Of a DNA stretch of 64,000 nucleotides, positions 20,554-27,260 are shown piece by piece (position 1 is the stretch's first letter; each line of letters starts with the position of its first letter). This DNA comes from Nitrospiraceae bacterium (GTDB lineage: Bacteria > Nitrospirota > Nitrospiria > Nitrospirales > Nitrospiraceae): assembly GCA_019637075.1 (NCBI GenBank), contig JAHBWI010000001.1, positions 434,001 to 498,000 of the forward strand, read 5' to 3'. Under the pieces are notes generated by a model. The model had not been told where the DNA came from. It worked only from the letters and a program-made list of their open reading frames with translations, and ran no database searches. The translations under genes were made by a program, and so were the position numbers.

Positions 20554-21831
20554 ATGTTCTGGGAAACACGACATCCCGCGGACGACCCTATCAAGGCTTG
20601 CCCCCTCTGCGGCAAACGCCCATCCTCCGAACAGCGCCTGGTTCCGAGTCCCACGAAATTCTCCTGCCGCTCCTGCCGGACGACCGAGCCGATTTCGATT
20701 TGCGATGAGTGCCTGAGGACCTGGGCCGATTCGCTGAAGAAATCCCCCACCGCCCCTCCTCCTGCTTCTACGCTCCCGACGGAACTGCCCAAGCCCCCTG
20801 CCATCAAGGCGATCCTCGATGAATACGTCGTCGGACAAGACCGGGCCAAGCGCGTGCTGTCCGTCGCTGTGTACAACCACTACAAACGCATTCTGCACCG
20901 AGACCGCCTGACGAATGTCGAGTTGCAGAAGGGCAACATTCTGATGATCGGGTCCACGGGGACCGGCAAGACGCTTCTTTCCCAGACTCTCGCCAAAATT
21001 CTCAAGGTGCCCTTCGCAGTCGCGGATGCCACGACGCTGACTCAGGCCGGTTATGTCGGCGAGGATGTGGAAAACGTGGTCCTCAAGCTCTTGCAGAACT
21101 GCGACTACGACGTGCCGCTCTGCCAGACCGGCATCATCTACATCGACGAAATCGACAAGATCACGAGCAAGGCGTCGAATCCATCCCTTTCTCGGGATGT
21201 CTCCGGCGAGGGCGTGCAACAGGCGTTGTTGAAATTGGTTGAGGGAACGATCTGCAACGTGCCGCCCAAGGGTGGGCGCAAACATCCGGAGCAAGACTAC
21301 ATTCGCGTCGATACCACGAACATTCTTTTTATCTGCGGAGGCGCGTTCGTCGGGCTGGATCGCATCATCGAATCCCGCACCTCGGAGCGGCGCATGGGCT
21401 TCAGCGCCGAGGCGCCACAAGTTGTCACCGATGGGCATTCCGACCTGCTCGGGTTGGTCAAGGCTGAGGACCTGCTGAAGTTCGGGCTCATTCCTGAGTT
21501 CGTCGGCCGTTTCCCCGTGTTGACCACGCTGACCGATCTGGACGTGCCGGCATTGATCCGCATCCTGACGGAGCCGCGGCATGCGCTGGTCAAACAGTAC
21601 CAAGCCCTCTTCGAACTCGACGGCGTGGACCTCCGGTTCACCGAAGGTGCCGTTAAGAGCGTCGCACGCCGCGCGGCCTTGATGAAGACCGGCGCCAGAG
21701 CGCTCCGTACCATTCTGGAAGATGTGATGTTGGATGTGATGTATGAGGTCCCGGCCCGAGAAGATGTGAAGACCGTGCTGATTACGGAGGACGTGATCGC
21801 CGGACTCGATCACCCCACCATCCTCGTTTGA
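20554..21831 (+). CDS. ClpX-like AAA+ unfoldase with an unusual zinc-finger N-terminus
   Basis: 425 residues. The AAA+ core is that of Clp[22 protein letters not shown], Walker A GSTGTGKT, pore loop AGYVGED, Walker [35 protein letters not shown] (RKH loop) and [10 protein letters not shown]. The ClpP-contacting loop reads RRMGFSA, so ClpP binding is plausible. The N-terminal domain departs from normal: CPLC, then CRSC, then CDEC, six cysteines in three pairs, where standard ClpX has two pairs about 18 residues apart. This may alter adaptor or substrate choice. GAAGGGACG precedes ATG 20554. No clpP neighbour is present, so this is probably a paralogue of the main ClpX. Confidence 0.9.
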
Positions 21832-21883
21832 CGACTTCCCCTCGGCAGTCTCCTGCCTTTTCCCGTACTATCACCACAAACGA

Positions 21884-21911
21884 GAAGGACTGCCCCGCAG
21901 GACAGTCCTTC
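21884..21911. terminator. Hairpin between convergent genes
   Basis: GAAGGACTG and CAGTCCTTC pair perfectly over 9 bases around a 10-base loop, in the gap between the ClpX-like gene and the oppositely oriented membrane-protein block. On the minus strand it is followed by a weak T-rich TCTCGTTTG. It may act as a terminator in either direction. Confidence 0.5.
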
Positions 21912-21951
21912 CAGTCATGCCGTCAACGGTCGGCTTCGGGGACACTCACAC

Positions 21952-22116
21952 TTACGCGGCGTGCCGTACGCGGTCGTGATCGACGGCGGTATTGGACGCA
22001 TGGGACACCGAACCGTGACTGCCGTGCAGCCGTTCGGAATCGGCTTCAGTCCCCATCGCCCAGGCCAACAGCCACACCAACGTGACGATCGTGCCCAATC
22101 CGATGATCTCGACCAT
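21952..22116 (-). CDS. Small single-pass membrane protein (54 residues)
   Basis: Begins MVEIIGLGTIVTLVWLLAWA, one transmembrane helix at ~3-21. It continues with an acidic then histidine-rich tail (EADSERLHGSHG, SHAS, DHDRVRHAA) that has five histidines and could bind metal. A strong CAGGAGGTG site fixes the start at 22116. It is the last gene of the minus-strand block of paired large and small membrane proteins, 50 bases after the 59-residue gene. No family recognised. Confidence 0.65.
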   Translation of the reverse strand: MVEIIGLGTIVTLVWLLAWAMGTEADSERLHGSHGSVSHASNTAVDHDRVRHAA

Positions 22117-22166
22117 GCTGCACCTCCTGCCGGCTCGTGCCTTCCGCAGTCGCCTCACCCTCGAGT

Positions 22167-22346
22167 CTATGCCGCCGCTCTGCTCCGGCTGCGGCCCTCC
22201 GCAGCTGGGAGCGCTTCCTGTCGATCATCTTCCTTATGTCGGGTCGCCGACTCGCTCTGCTTGGAATAGATGATCGCCATGGTGGCGAAGAACAGCATGA
22301 CCAACGTCCCGACTCCGAGGACGATGCCCCAATATCCCCAGGACAT
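22167..22346 (-). CDS. Small single-pass membrane protein S1 (59 residues)
   Basis: Sequence starts MSWGYWGIVLGVGTLVMLFF, with one transmembrane helix at ~6-27 and a charged C-terminal tail (KEDDRQE). It resembles the 51-residue protein at 23519-23674 (M-T/S-W--W-I--G-G-L-M--FFA), so the two are paralogues. CAGGAGGTGATTC before the ATG is a strong ribosome site. It follows the large membrane protein at 22431-23366, repeating the large-small order seen one module upstream. Function unknown; size and shape recall small subunits of membrane complexes. Confidence 0.7.
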   Translation of the reverse strand: MSWGYWGIVLGVGTLVMLFFATMAIIYSKQSESATRHKEDDRQEALPAAEGRSRSRAAA

Positions 22347-22430
22347 GAATCACCTCCTGGTTGGACCGGCCGACGCCTTGACCTCGGCCGACTGACGGTC
22401 TCATCTCCGCACACCAGCCTATGCTAGCCG

Positions 22431-23366
22431 CTATCCCGTCATGCGATACAGACGCTGAAGGGTTTCCACCTTTTCGATTGCCAGGGCTTCCTCTTCCCGC
22501 CTGCGGGCCGCCATTGCCATTCCACCCCAAAACACAGCGACCAGGCCGGCAAAGGCTGCCGCCACATATCTGCCCGGAATGTCCTGCCACAGGCGCGGCT
22601 CGACCTCGGCCACCAACTCTCCTGCCCCGCCGCCTCCCATCGCGCCGTAGGCATCATTCGCCCGTACGGCCGCCATGGCCGCCGTCGCCAACTGATACTG
22701 GTTGAGACCACTAGCTTCCCCATAGGCTTCCTCCGCCAGCGCGACGCGGAGGAGCGCATGCCCGATCCGTTCCTGGTTGCTGCTCATTTGTTGATCTTCA
22801 TCCAGCGCGGCCTGAACGATACTCTGCCCAAGGTAGGCTTGGTGGGTGTCTTCAAACGCCCGATGCATGCGATCGCCGTTCAGTTCCGCCGTACGGATGA
22901 GGTCACGATTGAAGTTCGAGACATGCTGATCCGCGGAGAGGATTCCCGCACGAATGCCTTGTCTCGTCCCATTGATGATCGAATGCCCCATAACCCACTG
23001 CATGCGCGCCGCATGGTCCGCCTCCATCGTGGCGGCACCGATCTCGACGACTCCGAGCGGGCTGAATGTCAGATCTTCCAGCCGCTGCTGCGCATTCTGC
23101 GCGCGTTTCAACTCCGCGAACGAACTCGCCAGGGTACGGGCGGTCTGACGCCCCAGCAACTCTTCATCGAGCATCGCCTGTCCGATGGCCGGCTGCAGCC
23201 ATTGAATCCCGGCTTCGATACCGACCGGCGTCGGCGACGCGATCGCGATCGACTCGGTCTGCTGCCAGAAACCGTTGGTCGCCATGACCACGGCATAACC
23301 TCCCACCAGGGTGGCCACGAGGCCGATGGCTGCCATCACGTCTATGAGATCATGCTTGCGTCCCAT
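22431..23366 (-). CDS. Large two-TM membrane protein L1 (tandem paralogue)
   Basis: 311 residues. An N-terminal helix (~9-31, LIDVMAAIGLVATLVGGYAV) and a C-terminal helix (~268-290, YVAAAFAGLVAVFWGGMAMA) flank a ~235-residue, mostly helical domain that would lie outside the inner membrane. The short basic C-tail ends IEKVETLQRLYR. It is a clear paralogue of L2 at 23693-24646: both begin MGRK, share Q-LQP-(I/L)GQA, WVMG/YVMG and R-G(I/V)R(A/S)G(I/L)LS segments and the V-ETL-RL-R end. AAAGGAGGGCATC precedes both starts. No known family recognised. It probably works with the adjacent single-TM protein S1. Confidence 0.75.
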   Translation of the reverse strand: MGRKHDLIDVMAAIGLVATLVGGYAVVMATNGFWQQTESIAIASPTPVGIEAGIQWLQPAIGQAMLDEELLGRQTARTLASSFAELKRAQNAQQRLEDLTFSPLGVVEIGAATMEADHAARMQWVMGHSIINGTRQGIRAGILSADQHVSNFNRDLIRTAELNGDRMHRAFEDTHQAYLGQSIVQAALDEDQQMSSNQERIGHALLRVALAEEAYGEASGLNQYQLATAAMAAVRANDAYGAMGGGGAGELVAEVEPRLWQDIPGRYVAAAFAGLVAVFWGGMAMAARRREEEALAIEKVETLQRLYRMTG

Positions 23367-23518
23367 GATGCCCTCCTTTGGGAATCGAGGCGTCCTGCCC
23401 GCGACTTCCACCCGGCGGCGTCTTGCCCGGTGTTTCAGCTCCGTCGGCAATACGGCACCCGCGTGACGGCGCCCACCGTTGATCAGAGCCACATCCGACG
23501 CTCGTGCCGGCCCCGTCC

Positions 23519-23674
23519 TCATCCACGCGAAGCGGTCGGATGCGGCCCCGGCTCCTTCCCGACGTTATGTCCCAGATCCCGGCGCGCCGACGCATACAGC
23601 AACTCCATCGCGAAAAACATCACCATGAGCAGCGCGCCGAGCCCAATCGCAATCGCCCAATTTTCCCAGGTCAT
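23519..23674 (-). CDS. Small single-pass membrane protein S2 (51 residues)
   Basis: Sequence starts MTWENWAIAIGLGALLMVMF, with one transmembrane helix at ~6-28 followed by a polar tail (ARRDLGHNVGKEPG). It is a paralogue of S1, and its start lies only 19 bases after the stop of L2, so the two are probably cotranslated or at least cotranscribed. GGAGGGGAGGCC is the ribosome site. No family recognised. Confidence 0.7.
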   Translation of the reverse strand: MTWENWAIAIGLGALLMVMFFAMELLYASARRDLGHNVGKEPGPHPTASRG

Positions 23675-23692
23675 GACCGGCCTCCCCTCCAC

Positions 23693-24646
23693 TTAGGTCG
23701 TGGATCGATGCAGGCGTAACAACGTTTCCACTTTCCACATCGGCATGGCGTCGTCTTCGGCCCGCCGCCGCACGAGCGAGAGCGCGCCCACGAACAACGC
23801 AATCAAACCCAGGCAGGCCGCCATCAGATACCCGTAGTGAATGTCCGGCGTGATGCGAGTGTGGGCCACAGCGGGTCTGCCTTCGATCGCCTCCGCGTCG
23901 AACATCGCCAGGCGATCCAGGCGCTCCTGCAACGCATTGCTGCGAATGGCCGCCACCGTGGCGCTCGCCAATTGCGCCTGGTCGGCCGCCGTCGCCTCCT
24001 CATACGCAGCCTCGGCAGCGGCTTGCCTGATGACGGCGAGCGCGATCCGCTCCTGCGCCGCCGCGTCGAGCCTGGTCTCTTCCTGTGCCGACTCCACGAT
24101 CATGCGCCCCAACATCGGCTGCCGGCCCGCCTCGAACTGTTCATCCATGCGGCGGCCCAGCGCCTCGGTCCTGCGAATCACCTCCGCATTGAACGCGCTT
24201 CCGTAATACATGGGCGAGAGGAGACCGCTGCGGACTCCACGACGGGTTTCATTCACGAGATTTCTGCCCATCACGTATTGGACTCGCACTTGGTGATCCG
24301 CCGCCTGCCCCATCGCGGTCAGCTCGGCGAGCGCCAGCGGACTCAGCAGCGTGGTGCTGATCCGTTGATAGTCCTCGATGGCAAGATCCAATTCTTCGGA
24401 GGCAGCCGACACTGTCGCCGCCGCATCGCGGTCGCGGATGAATCCGTCGACGATGGCCTGACCGAGAACTGGTTGGAGATACTGGATGCCGACGCTGAGG
24501 TCGGCAGCGGTGGCGGAGACCGAGACAGGAACCGGGGGTCGTTGCCAAAAACCGTCGGCCGCCGTGACGAGTAGATACCCTCCGAACAACGTGGCGGCCA
24601 ATCCGACGGCCGCTAGAACGTCGACGACCTCGTACTTTCTGCCCAT
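23693..24646 (-). CDS. Large two-TM membrane protein L2 (tandem paralogue)
   Basis: 317 residues with the same plan as L1: MGRKYEVVDVLAAVGLAATL helix at the N-terminus, a ~240-residue alanine- and glutamate-rich helical region (for example AAAEAAYEEATAADQAQLA), a second helix at ~276-297 (YLMAACLGLIALFVGALSLV), and a basic tail ending KVETLLRLHR. The soluble domain has no cysteine and no catalytic motif I can name. The same AAAGGAGGGCATC leader lies before its ATG as before L1, which supports duplication of the whole L-S unit. It may be a membrane-tethered scaffold or sensor, but that is inference. Confidence 0.75.
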   Translation of the reverse strand: MGRKYEVVDVLAAVGLAATLFGGYLLVTAADGFWQRPPVPVSVSATAADLSVGIQYLQPVLGQAIVDGFIRDRDAAATVSAASEELDLAIEDYQRISTTLLSPLALAELTAMGQAADHQVRVQYVMGRNLVNETRRGVRSGLLSPMYYGSAFNAEVIRRTEALGRRMDEQFEAGRQPMLGRMIVESAQEETRLDAAAQERIALAVIRQAAAEAAYEEATAADQAQLASATVAAIRSNALQERLDRLAMFDAEAIEGRPAVAHTRITPDIHYGYLMAACLGLIALFVGALSLVRRRAEDDAMPMWKVETLLRLHRSTT

Positions 24647-24746
24647 GATGCCCTCCTTTCGGATTCGGGCACGTCGGCACGCGGTTCTGGCACCACGCAG
24701 CGGCCTGCCGGAATCACCTCACCCTGTCGATACGCTAGGTCGGCAA

Positions 24747-25040
24747 TCACGCGTCATTCCTCCTCATGTGAGTGTGATGGGGTTGGTCATGAGCCGTCCG
24801 CGCATGGCGCGCCATCGTCGGAACAGTGCGCGGAACGGCGCAACCGGGTGCGGCCCTGATGGTCAAATGCACTCGGCCGCAGTCCGGACATTCCTGAATG
24901 AGAATCCGCGCGCGGTGCGATGGAGCAGCGAAGGAATCAACCGTGATGTCGTGGTGATGGTGAAGGAAACCGGGAGTCGCTGGAGCCTGGGCACACCCAT
25001 CGTGGTCGCACCGTCGGTCATGTTCGCCACGGAGGACCAT
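24747..25040 (-). CDS. Possible small cysteine/histidine-rich protein
   Basis: 97 residues. Contains CDHDGC, an HHHHDIT cluster, and ECPDCGRVHLTI, giving a CxxC knuckle and many histidines that would suit zinc binding. AGGTGG lies six bases before the ATG. The C-terminal third (RTAHDQPHHTHM) is low in structure. It sits between DUF350 and L2 on the same strand as the block. Coding evidence is moderate; a plus-strand frame overlaps it but looks worse. No function is proposed. Confidence 0.4.
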   Translation of the reverse strand: MVLRGEHDRRCDHDGCAQAPATPGFLHHHHDITVDSFAAPSHRARILIQECPDCGRVHLTIRAAPGCAVPRTVPTMARHARTAHDQPHHTHMRRNDA

Positions 25041-25180: not shown

Positions 25181-25591
25181 TCACGGAGTCAGGCAGGCGC
25201 CGGTGAGGATCCCGCACCCGATCGAGAGCAAGCCGAGCAAGACGCCCTGCGCGGTCACGCCATCTTCGATCCCTTTCGAAAGATCCGGGATGAACAGCCG
25301 CACCAGCGCATACACGGCAGCCTGCACCAGCCCCGCAATGAGTCCCCACAGGGTCAGTTCCAGCACGTTCGACGTGTGCGCGCTCACCGTCGCGAGCGCC
25401 AGGATAAATCCCAACAGCGCCCCGCCCAAGCTGCAGGCCGCGGCAACATTGCCGGCCCGGATCAGTGCAATCTCCCGATAGGGAGTCCAGTGCGTATAGG
25501 CCCAGGCGAACGCCGACAATAGTAGGAACGAGGCGACAAGGTGGAGCAAAAAATTCGGCACGGTCGCCAAGGTCTCGCTGAGTATGCTCAT
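25181..25591 (-). CDS. DUF350 family membrane protein (YjfL-like)
   Basis: 136 residues with four transmembrane helices arranged as two repeats, the known DUF350 plan: FLLHLVASFLLLSAFAWAY, AACSLGGALLGFILAL, LELTLWGLIAGLVQAAVYAL and GVLLGLLSIGCGILTGAC. Its start overlaps the stop of the YgiC-like gene (ATGA), so the two are coupled. In E. coli the homologue YjfL is encoded with YjfM and the YgiC-like YjfC, which matches this arrangement. Role unknown, thought to concern the envelope. Confidence 0.85.
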   Translation of the reverse strand: MSILSETLATVPNFLLHLVASFLLLSAFAWAYTHWTPYREIALIRAGNVAAACSLGGALLGFILALATVSAHTSNVLELTLWGLIAGLVQAAVYALVRLFIPDLSKGIEDGVTAQGVLLGLLSIGCGILTGACLTP

Positions 25592-26736
25592 GACCTTCTT
25601 TTCTCCTTCGGCATGAAGTAATGCGGTGTGAAGCGGCTGCGGTTGTGTGTGACCCGGTCTCGATCCTCACGGATGCCGATGCCGGCCGGCTCGTCTCCGA
25701 TCACCCAGGACCCGATGACCGGATGCCATCCGTCAAAGTGCGAAAGCGGTTGATAGGCCTGATACACGAAGCCTTCGGCGCCGTAGGCTCCTTCGGTTTC
25801 CGTCCGTCCGCTCGGCTCGACGATCGTCACGTTCGCACCCTCGCGCGACCAGAGCGGCTTGCGCACATACGAGCCGGTGAGCCGATCCGACTCGAGGTAT
25901 GCCGGCAGCAGGTTGGGATGGTCCGGAAAGTATTCCCACAGGCACGCCAGGATCCCCTTGTTGCTGAGCAGCATCTTCCACGCCGGTTCAATCAGGTAGA
26001 GCGAAGCCTCGAGCAGGTGCGGCGCAAATGGTTCGTTGATCATCCACTCCCAGGGATAGAGTTTGAACAACGCTTCGATGCGATGGTCCGATTCATCGAC
26101 GAATTCCCGCAGTCGCGGATCCCAGCCGATGCGATCAATCGCCACCGGTACCGTGCGGAATCCTGCCTGTTGCGCGACGTCTGTGAGATACGCCAGGGTT
26201 TGGGTATCCTCCTCGCTTTCCGACAGCCCCGTCAGGTGGAGCTCATCCGTCGACAGAGCGCTTCGCACCGTCTTCCAACGCTCGATCAGCCGCTCGTGGA
26301 GGCTATTGAATTGATCCGCGCCCGGCCGCGCCGCTTCCAACCAATGCCATTGCGCCACGGCCGCCTCCAGCAGCGCCGTCGGTGTATCGGCGTTGTACTC
26401 GAGCAACTTCGGCGGGCCGGTCCCGTCGTAAACCAGGTCCATCCGCCCGTAGAGATACGGTTCATCCTCCTCCCACGACTCGATGATTTCCTGATGCCAG
26501 ACCGTCGGAATCCGCAACTGATCCAAGCGCCGGCCTGTGATGATGCGGCCTGCCGCCTCGCAGCAGCGTTCGTGCAACTCCGCCGTCGCCGATTCGAGTT
26601 CGTCCACCTCGCGAGGCATCAACTCATAGCAGGCATCTTCCGTCCAGTACCCGCCGTCAAGGCCATGAAAGGTGAACCCGATCTCCTCCAGTTCTTTCTC
26701 CCACTGGGGGCGCGGCGTCGAAGGTTGCCGTTGCAT
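25588..26736 (-). CDS. Glutathionylspermidine synthase-like ATP-grasp protein (YgiC/YjfC type)
   Basis: 382 residues, the usual length for YgiC. The domain spans nearly all of it: the WTEDACYEL opening, LVYDGTGPPKLLEYNADTPT (~105-124), ALFKLYPWEWM, then KGILACLWEYFPDHPNLLPAY, and the ATP-grasp part with YVRKPLWSREGANV (~305-318) and a GSWVIGDEPAGIGIRED end. YgiC-like proteins lack the amidase half of true glutathionylspermidine synthase, and their substrate is not established; a peptide or amine ligase activity is expected. The TGATG junction with the YgiB-like gene and ATGA with DUF350 show a tight three-gene unit. Confidence 0.88.
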   Translation of the reverse strand: MQRQPSTPRPQWEKELEEIGFTFHGLDGGYWTEDACYELMPREVDELESATAELHERCCEAAGRIITGRRLDQLRIPTVWHQEIIESWEEDEPYLYGRMDLVYDGTGPPKLLEYNADTPTALLEAAVAQWHWLEAARPGADQFNSLHERLIERWKTVRSALSTDELHLTGLSESEEDTQTLAYLTDVAQQAGFRTVPVAIDRIGWDPRLREFVDESDHRIEALFKLYPWEWMINEPFAPHLLEASLYLIEPAWKMLLSNKGILACLWEYFPDHPNLLPAYLESDRLTGSYVRKPLWSREGANVTIVEPSGRTETEGAYGAEGFVYQAYQPLSHFDGWHPVIGSWVIGDEPAGIGIREDRDRVTHNRSRFTPHYFMPKEKRRS

Positions 26737-27107
26737 CAGCTATGCGCTCCGGAAAAGTGTCGTGAGGACTGGCCGAATCCGCCCCGGACGATTCCGGATG
26801 CTCGGCTGTTGCGCGGGACGTTCCGCAGCTCTTCGCCGGTGCGCCTGGCCCGGCCGTCGGGATCGATCGTGTACCCGCCTTGGGGGCCGTGGTAGCGGAT
26901 TGAAGCATGGGAAGAGCCCGACGGAGCCGGCTCGCAGTCGGGGGCATTCCATTCCCGCAGACATTCTTCCCGACTCTGGTACAGGGGCCGATTGTCGGCA
27001 GCGTTGTCGCATCCCTGGGCGAACAAGACAGTGGTACCCAAGAGCACCAATCGCACATGGCGGGATCGTTTTCTGTTGGGCGATGCGTCGCTGTCCGGTG
27101 GCGTCAT
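26736..27107 (-). CDS. YgiB-like (DUF1190) protein
   Basis: About 123 residues from the start chosen here (MTPPDSD). A hydrophobic stretch LVLLGTTVLFAQGC ends in a cysteine and could be a lipoprotein signal, though the AQGC box is not ideal. The mature part has PLYQSREECLREWNAPDCEP, the two-cysteine motif of DUF1190/YgiB, followed by a glycine/arginine-rich tail ending GGFGQSSRHFSG as in that family. The start is uncertain; the frame opens to 27227 and no upstream start has a good ribosome site. It heads the YgiB-YgiC-DUF350 unit. Confidence 0.7.
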   Translation of the reverse strand: MTPPDSDASPNRKRSRHVRLVLLGTTVLFAQGCDNAADNRPLYQSREECLREWNAPDCEPAPSGSSHASIRYHGPQGGYTIDPDGRARRTGEELRNVPRNSRASGIVRGGFGQSSRHFSGAHS

Positions 27108-27260
27108 ACCTGGGGCCGGTCTGATCGGCGCCATCTTAGCAGGTACGAGGATGCACGCAAAGCATCGAGAAGAGACCGACCTAGCCGGCCGGCCTAGCGA
27201 CTGCACGCGGGCAACGAATGTTCGCAAATTTCAGAGAGGCGGCCGAATAAAGTCGGAGCG

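Follow-up and report, generated by a model that had tools for sequence, protein, structure and literature searches.

An unclassified membrane-protein module of Nitrospirales with C-terminal Ala-Ala tails and a linked second ClpX: a candidate for regulated proteolysis

What could be the function of two pairs of membrane proteins, each consisting of a large and a small partner, that are encoded in tandem and resemble no known family? The question is raised by a 64,000-nucleotide stretch (hereafter, the window) of a Nitrospira genome of 4.06 Mb, in which a first-pass annotation, made from the sequence alone, described the two pairs along with a third small membrane protein as a duplicated module. 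All five minus-strand frames, two large (L), two small (S) and the third small protein (T), were found as described; they point one way and each has a Shine-Dalgarno site (AGGAGG- or GGAGG-type for S and T), and the leader said to precede both L genes is indeed identical in the two places. The functional unit, which had been taken to end with T, appears to extend beyond it, to a convergent ClpX-like gene. The features are, in the order of transcription of the module:

24647..24659, minus strand: Shine-Dalgarno leader of LA, AAAGGAGGGCATC
23693..24646, minus strand: LA (L2 of the first-pass annotation), 317 aa; first transmembrane helix (TM1), predicted periplasmic all-helical domain, TM2 and a short, predicted cytoplasmic tail, ...LHRSTT; no Ala-Ala; N. 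defluvii type
23519..23674, minus strand: SA (formerly S2), 51 aa; single-TM protein, ends ...TASRG (tail lost); homologue of the 40-aa S in the N. defluvii clade
23367..23379, minus strand: identical leader of LB, AAAGGAGGGCATC
22431..23366, minus strand: LB (formerly L1), 311 aa; ends ...LYRMTG; sister to LA plus the L of the defluvii clade (100/99)
22167..22346, minus strand: SB (formerly S1), 59 aa; single-TM protein, ends ...RSRAAA, with the conserved tail at codons 22170-22178
21952..22116, minus strand: T (the third small membrane protein), 54 aa; starts MVEIIG..., ends ...VRHAA, with the Ala-Ala codons at 21955-21960
21883..21912, minus strand: terminator-like hairpin 3' of T; placed correctly but weak by count (1 found, against a shuffle mean of 1.9)
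20554..21831, plus strand: second ClpX (6-Cys ClpX), convergent with T; ~425 aa from a conserved [MV]FW start

The two L proteins are related, as had been noted (41% identity; mutual match at E = 1.4e-64), and the description of the module as duplicated holds inasmuch as there are two homologous pairs, but the duplication is not recent. In the L tree, LA joins the L proteins of the N. defluvii clade (100/99) and LB falls outside this group (100/99), which rules out a recent tandem duplication of L-S. In the N. defluvii-type clade, an S-T-ClpX block is located ~80-110 kb away from L and the 40-aa S (S40), and at one locus (L187) a decayed L relic lies in front of S-T-ClpX. Given the L tree, this arrangement and the relic, the window, judging from sequence, holds an ancestral-type unit (LB-SB-T plus the 6-Cys ClpX) beside an old tailless paralogue pair (LA-SA). 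The upstream DUF350, GSP_synth and DUF1190-like genes (25181-27227) were considered as members of the module and rejected, given that their linkage to L is not conserved in most relatives. Three related loci (L088, L090 and L109) do have GSP_synth, ~3 kb upstream.

Searches of L, S and T against Pfam, NCBIfam, PHROG, PADLOC and PDB gave no family match at the curated cut-off or E < 1e-3; DoxX_2, Herpes_UL46 and a PHROG head protease came up only as sub-threshold chance matches. The earlier impression that no known family is involved thus stands after profile and PDB sequence searches, and by sequence criteria L, S and T are three unclassified protein families. A strict pattern scan of GTDB retrieved 51 loci, the titles of which all read Nitrospira, Nitrospiraceae or Nitrospirae/Nitrospirota, with Ca. 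N. defluvii and N. moscoviensis among the named relatives. A profile search detected L in 61 of the 296 genomes of the phylum, all 61 in the order Nitrospirales. Outside Nitrospiraceae, S had no match among 98 genomes of the class, although single diverged S copies adjoin L in another family (L050). In the samples searched, the three families appear to be confined to Nitrospirales.

Within Nitrospiraceae, the families travel together. Among 147 genomes, L was detected in 93, S in 76 and T in 54; S is present in 71 of the 93 genomes with L vs 5 of the 54 without it (p = 4e-16), and S or T in 80 of the 93 (80/13/6/48; p = 5e-20), where the p-values overstate independence because the sampled genomes are kin. 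Whether an S gene always follows L had been raised as a check, and it does not: S accompanies L as a rule, but certain lineages, N. moscoviensis (L076) among them, have no detectable S. The order L-S-T recurs across many Nitrospiraceae in many different surroundings, which points to operon linkage, and dN is well below dS in most close S/T pairs (for example, 0.08 vs 1.18 in the 40-aa S group), with a small or reversed difference in a few, such as L078/L094. Given the recurrent gene order and the mostly low dN, the short frames are coding rather than chance, and the S frames, the conservation of which had been made a condition of the first proposal, do recur in relatives in the same order. T, which had been treated as a mere additional small protein, belongs to the module as much as S does.

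An AlphaFold model of L (LA) of medium confidence (pLDDT 75.8, pTM 0.47) consists of TM1 (residues 7-31), long helices (50-98, 103-140 and 151-252), TM2 (271-298) and a short C-terminal helix (303-316). The model, with two TM helices around an all-helical domain, and the positive-inside charges agree with the previous proposal in placing the soluble part of L in the periplasm. Basic residues follow TM2 of L and the sole TM helix of S and of T, and through the positive-inside rule this charge bias argues for cytoplasmic C-termini of all three proteins. Foldseek produced no match of L to a solved structure at E <= 1e-3. Its weak list includes chemoreceptor helical domains. In its predicted layout (TM, long periplasmic helices, TM), L is similar to chemoreceptor-like and four-helix sensor domains, but it differs from them in lacking a match at E <= 1e-3 and, in profile and Foldseek searches, any recognisable sensor, HAMP, MCP signalling or kinase domain. 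Membership of L in a chemoreceptor or sensor-kinase family was rejected on the absence of the required domains and of a sequence match to any sensor family. Given the co-occurrence of L with S and the two-TM helical layout of L with its predicted periplasmic domain, a membrane complex, as originally proposed, is a reasonable reading of L and S, and L, S and T probably associate physically in the membrane.

The strongest clues to function are a C-terminal Ala-Ala tail and the linked second ClpX. Across the relatives of L, S and T, a conserved end, [R/K]-x-Ala-Ala-COOH, follows a variable, predicted cytoplasmic linker: T tails read ...RQAA, RHAA or RRAA, S tails ...KHAA, RQAA or RRAA, and L tails ...YRTAA, YRMAA or YRKTA. 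The proteins ending in AA comprise 20 of 21 T, 25 of 41 S (nearly all of these from outside the N. defluvii clade) and 29 of 73 L, vs 1-3% in the background, that is, 7 of 943 other genes in the same loci and 19 of 672 genes from 800 kb sampled from three genomes; [RKH]xAA ends were found in 0 of 943 and 5 of 672, respectively, and none of the 26 small background ORFs with a Shine-Dalgarno site and a TM ends in AA. In the alignment of 19 T sequences, Ala-Ala is among just six invariant columns, and the linker before the tail varies in both the S and T alignments. Because the T homologues were first gathered with a profile of 30 N-terminal positions only, their tail was not selected for by the search. 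All four Ala codons occur at both tail positions, so that selection acts on the protein, and a DNA-level feature is ruled out.

The tail is also found beyond the module. S and T paralogues that stand alone at other genomic sites end in AA, although the profile that retrieved some of them covered the tail, which introduces a mild bias. Another small TM family (...HRNAA or HRKAA) has the same ending, and so has a 59-aa TM protein encoded before L in L140 (...FKKAA). In the window, SB (...RAAA) and T (...RHAA) have the tail, and LA, SA and LB do not. In a search for the tmRNA tag of the host genome, for comparison with the tails, the sole good match lay near a contig end and ARAGORN made no call. 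The first-pass annotation mentions neither the shared tail nor the linked second ClpX.

The window ClpX scores 562 bits against TIGR00382 (cut-off 370.75) and has a complete AAA+ core, with Walker A/B, the GYVG pore-1 loop, RKH and sensor-2. Its ClpP-binding loop is MGF, and that of nearly all its paralogues is [ML]GF, with IGF in one. The zinc domain has a 12-residue insert with an additional CxxC, giving six invariant Cys, so that this is a variant rather than a canonical ClpX, which has the standard 4-Cys N-domain; the canonical copy (61% identical) is encoded elsewhere (G000:C6:64697), following the only full-length clpP of the genome. One full-length ClpP per genome, beside canonical clpX, is the pattern in nearly all genomes checked, and a ClpP paralogue that could partner the 6-Cys ClpX was ruled out in the window's genome. 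A role in anti-phage defence was rejected, the ClpX giving only weak AAA matches to IetA/TRIP13 models. In the phylum sample, the 6-Cys class, as defined by its sequence, was found in Nitrospirales only. Residue positions were taken from the E. coli ClpX sequence, on which the residues that PMC7652416 names have the expected numbers. The Ala-Ala-COO- group, the key element of the ssrA tag, is read by ClpX residues Y153, V154, T199, V202, R228 and H230 (PMC7652416). All six recognition residues are kept in 19 of 19 aligned 6-Cys ClpX sequences, the window copy having T199S, a change that costs only about fourfold in KM (PMC7652416). The ClpX N-domain binds adaptors and some substrates but is dispensable for the ssrA tag itself (PMC5415555).

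Additional ClpX copies besides the canonical clpP-clpX pair are known from Myxococcus xanthus ClpX1-3 (PMC11423568). There, however, ClpX2 has R changed to K in RKH, ClpX3 has neither this motif nor the N-domain, and the additional copies stand as isolated genes (PMC11423568), whereas the Nitrospirales 6-Cys ClpX has RKH intact, has gained a CxxC in the zinc domain and is linked to putative substrates. The resemblance to ClpXP and ssrA-like degrons lies in the Ala-Ala end, which in many lineages all subunits share, and in the neighbouring ClpX with every contact residue (T199S in the window). Unlike ssrA, the tails of L, S and T, a putative degron, are encoded in the genome on small, unclassified membrane proteins and follow a basic residue, reading [R/K]xAA in place of LAA. 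That a ClpX-type enzyme degrades these proteins via their tails is, in our estimate, an even call.

The gene linkage is close. The 6-Cys ClpX is encoded in 37 of 147 Nitrospiraceae genomes, and T is present in 35 of these 37 vs 19 of the 110 genomes without this ClpX (35/2/19/91; p = 1e-17, which the kinship of the genomes overstates). When both are on the same contig, they lie within 2.5 kb of each other in 29 of 31 pairs, all 29 of them convergent, and the flanking genes vary from one occurrence of the linkage to another. L, ClpX and a response regulator are encoded together in one direction in another family of the order (L140, L145 and L148). The pairing is not strictly one-to-one: in the N. 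defluvii clade, the tails have been lost on L and the 40-aa S, and genomes that lack the 6-Cys ClpX (L035, L088 and L093) still have tails, which means that this ClpX cannot be the sole reader of the tails. Furthermore, in a neighbouring family the 6-Cys ClpX mostly occurs without detectable L, S or T, which counts against the degron model.

The persistence of tails where the 6-Cys ClpX is absent would also fit a degron that is read by a housekeeping protease, canonical ClpXP or FtsH, with the 6-Cys ClpX serving other substrates. Membrane proteins are usually degraded by FtsH, and Ala-Ala tails can serve this or other proteases too; canonical ClpX, present in nearly every genome checked (the few exceptions being fragmented assemblies), also has all the recognition residues. 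A housekeeping reader would, however, explain neither the convergent linkage of T with the 6-Cys ClpX nor the joint L-ClpX-regulator cluster, and we consider it unlikely. That the 6-Cys ClpX is the preferred reader of the tails can be put forward only tentatively.

The neighbouring genes bring in two-component signalling. A NarL-type regulator lies shortly downstream of L (or L-S) in 10 of the 51 GTDB loci, and other loci read L-S-T-kinase-regulator. A receiver-DUF4388 protein adjoins the 6-Cys ClpX in eight genomes of deep lineages (G002, G003, G011, G018, G031, G037, G043 and G051), and in some deep lineages dCache kinase and NtrC-type genes are nearby as well. Receiver-domain adaptors of ClpXP are known, namely, RssB (PMC7226468) and CpdR (PMC11519897), and the deep-lineage receiver protein, like them, has no recognised DNA-binding output; it differs in its DUF4388 output and in its absence beside ClpX in the window and derived lineages, so that its adaptor role is putative. 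Two-component control of the module is possible, and we raise it with reserve. The same linkage, together with the receptor-like layout predicted for L, in which a long helical domain is flanked by two TM helices, could also suit a different function of the [R/K]xAA end, namely, docking of the subunits of an L-S-T signalling complex to one shared cytoplasmic partner, such as a scaffold or a sensor kinase, with no degron involved. This appears quite unlikely to us: with just two residues and the carboxylate, the motif is minimal and exactly what ClpX pore loops read (PMC7652416), the linked gene is a variant ClpX, and among the neighbours we noticed no constantly present domain of a PDZ-like or another carboxylate-reading type.

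Jointly, the tails and the odd second ClpX suggest a dedicated switch for the on-demand removal of a membrane sensor. In the reading that we prefer, plausible if slightly short of an even chance, L-S-T is a membrane sensor or scaffold whose C-terminal degrons tie ClpX-dependent turnover to two-component signalling. L-S-T would sit in the inner membrane, with the long helical stalk of L in the periplasm, S and T as its one-helix partners and all C-termini exposed to the cytoplasm, where the ancestral [R/K]-x-Ala-Ala-COOH ends would act as a built-in degron of the ssrA type. The subunits would be extracted via the tail by a ClpX-type unfoldase (the dedicated 6-Cys ClpX encoded nearby in many lineages) for degradation by the single ClpP, and this regulated proteolysis would set the abundance of the membrane module. 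The signal may come from the linked two-component proteins, the NarL- or NtrC-type regulators and dCache kinases; in deep lineages, the receiver-DUF4388 protein may act, like RssB or CpdR, as an adaptor controlled by phosphorylation. The altered N-domain of ClpX would take the regulatory input and the unchanged pore would read the Ala-Ala tail, and the old tailless pair LA-SA would plausibly have escaped from ClpX turnover. The most specific version, a dedicated Nitrospirales system of proteolytic signalling in which a ClpX with a remodelled zinc domain, under receiver-DUF4388 or other two-component input, selectively pulls out and destroys Ala-Ala-tailed sensor subunits from which the tailless paralogues escape, is on the unlikely side as a whole. 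That the tails and the ClpX linkage are mechanistically meaningless, leaving a membrane complex of unassigned role as in the first-pass annotation, is compatible with the L-S co-occurrence and with lineages such as N. defluvii that keep L-S tailless and without the 6-Cys ClpX, but is improbable against tail conservation far above background, at the amino acid level, with synonymous codons free to vary.

ClpX-dependent regulated proteolysis and the extra ClpX copies of M. xanthus (PMC11423568) are already known; a search of open-access papers turned up no ClpX paralogue whose gene is linked to those of unclassified membrane proteins with genome-encoded Ala-Ala tails. Nitrospira are key nitrite oxidisers and comammox bacteria that are hard to grow and the regulation of which is poorly understood, and the tail idea is testable in E. 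coli with short reporters, without Nitrospira culture. If our preferred reading is correct, these bacteria would possess lineage-wide families of membrane proteins with constitutive ssrA-like degrons and a ClpX paralogue that is co-inherited with its likely substrates, and the tailed and tailless paralogues in a single window would be a natural system for exploring how ClpX variants gain dedicated substrates.

Immediately upstream of LA, the 317-residue copy in the window of the large two-TM protein L, the following reading frames are found:

25181-27227, minus strand: DUF350 membrane protein, glutathionylspermidine-synthase-like protein (GSP_synth) and DUF1190-like lipoprotein, encoded consecutively
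24747-25040, minus strand: 97-residue Cys/His-rich reading frame between the DUF350 gene and LA

In three related loci of other genomes (L088, L090 and L109), L likewise has a GSP_synth gene upstream, at a distance of about 3 kb. The 97-residue frame showed a weak, below cut-off match to a zinc-ribbon (E = 4e-4), and a search for clear homologs in relatives found none.

Downstream of L and the small single-TM proteins S and T, one lineage encodes conserved periplasmic proteins of ~116, ~118 and ~168 residues (L047 262-612, L056 318-824 and L044 8126-10491; coordinates are within each locus), for which we detected no Pfam match and recognized no family. An additional small single-TM family within L loci, MYPVIALIVLTLFTW... 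(L188 2472-2621, L085 2989-3135), also ends in Ala-Ala (...HRNAA or HRKAA), and a conserved 41-residue single-TM protein, MSDVHLKDVKDDITHEPAWVYLYG..., is encoded downstream of the L-regulator pair in L086 (11909-12037), L087, L099, L101, L103 and L107. In L142 (6543-6788) and L143 (5657-5788), L has lost the periplasmic domain and either retains only its two membrane ends or is truncated; the downstream NarL response regulator is still present.

Paralogs of S and T also stand alone:

S: L180 4324-4506, L181 4462-4638, L182 3958-4137, L183 4327-4506, L184 4382-4561
T: L172 4310-4480, L173 4625-4792, L174 4127-4297, L175 4132-4299, L178 3810-3980

The stand-alone S proteins (58-60 residues, ending in ...RRAA) are repeatedly adjoined, in one clade, by a conserved 119-residue protein (MGPTKxIVKxHALYEALGGKLIKDGF). 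The stand-alone T paralogs, all with the Ala-Ala end, are dispersed over Nitrospira genomes, with neighbor genes that vary among the five loci.
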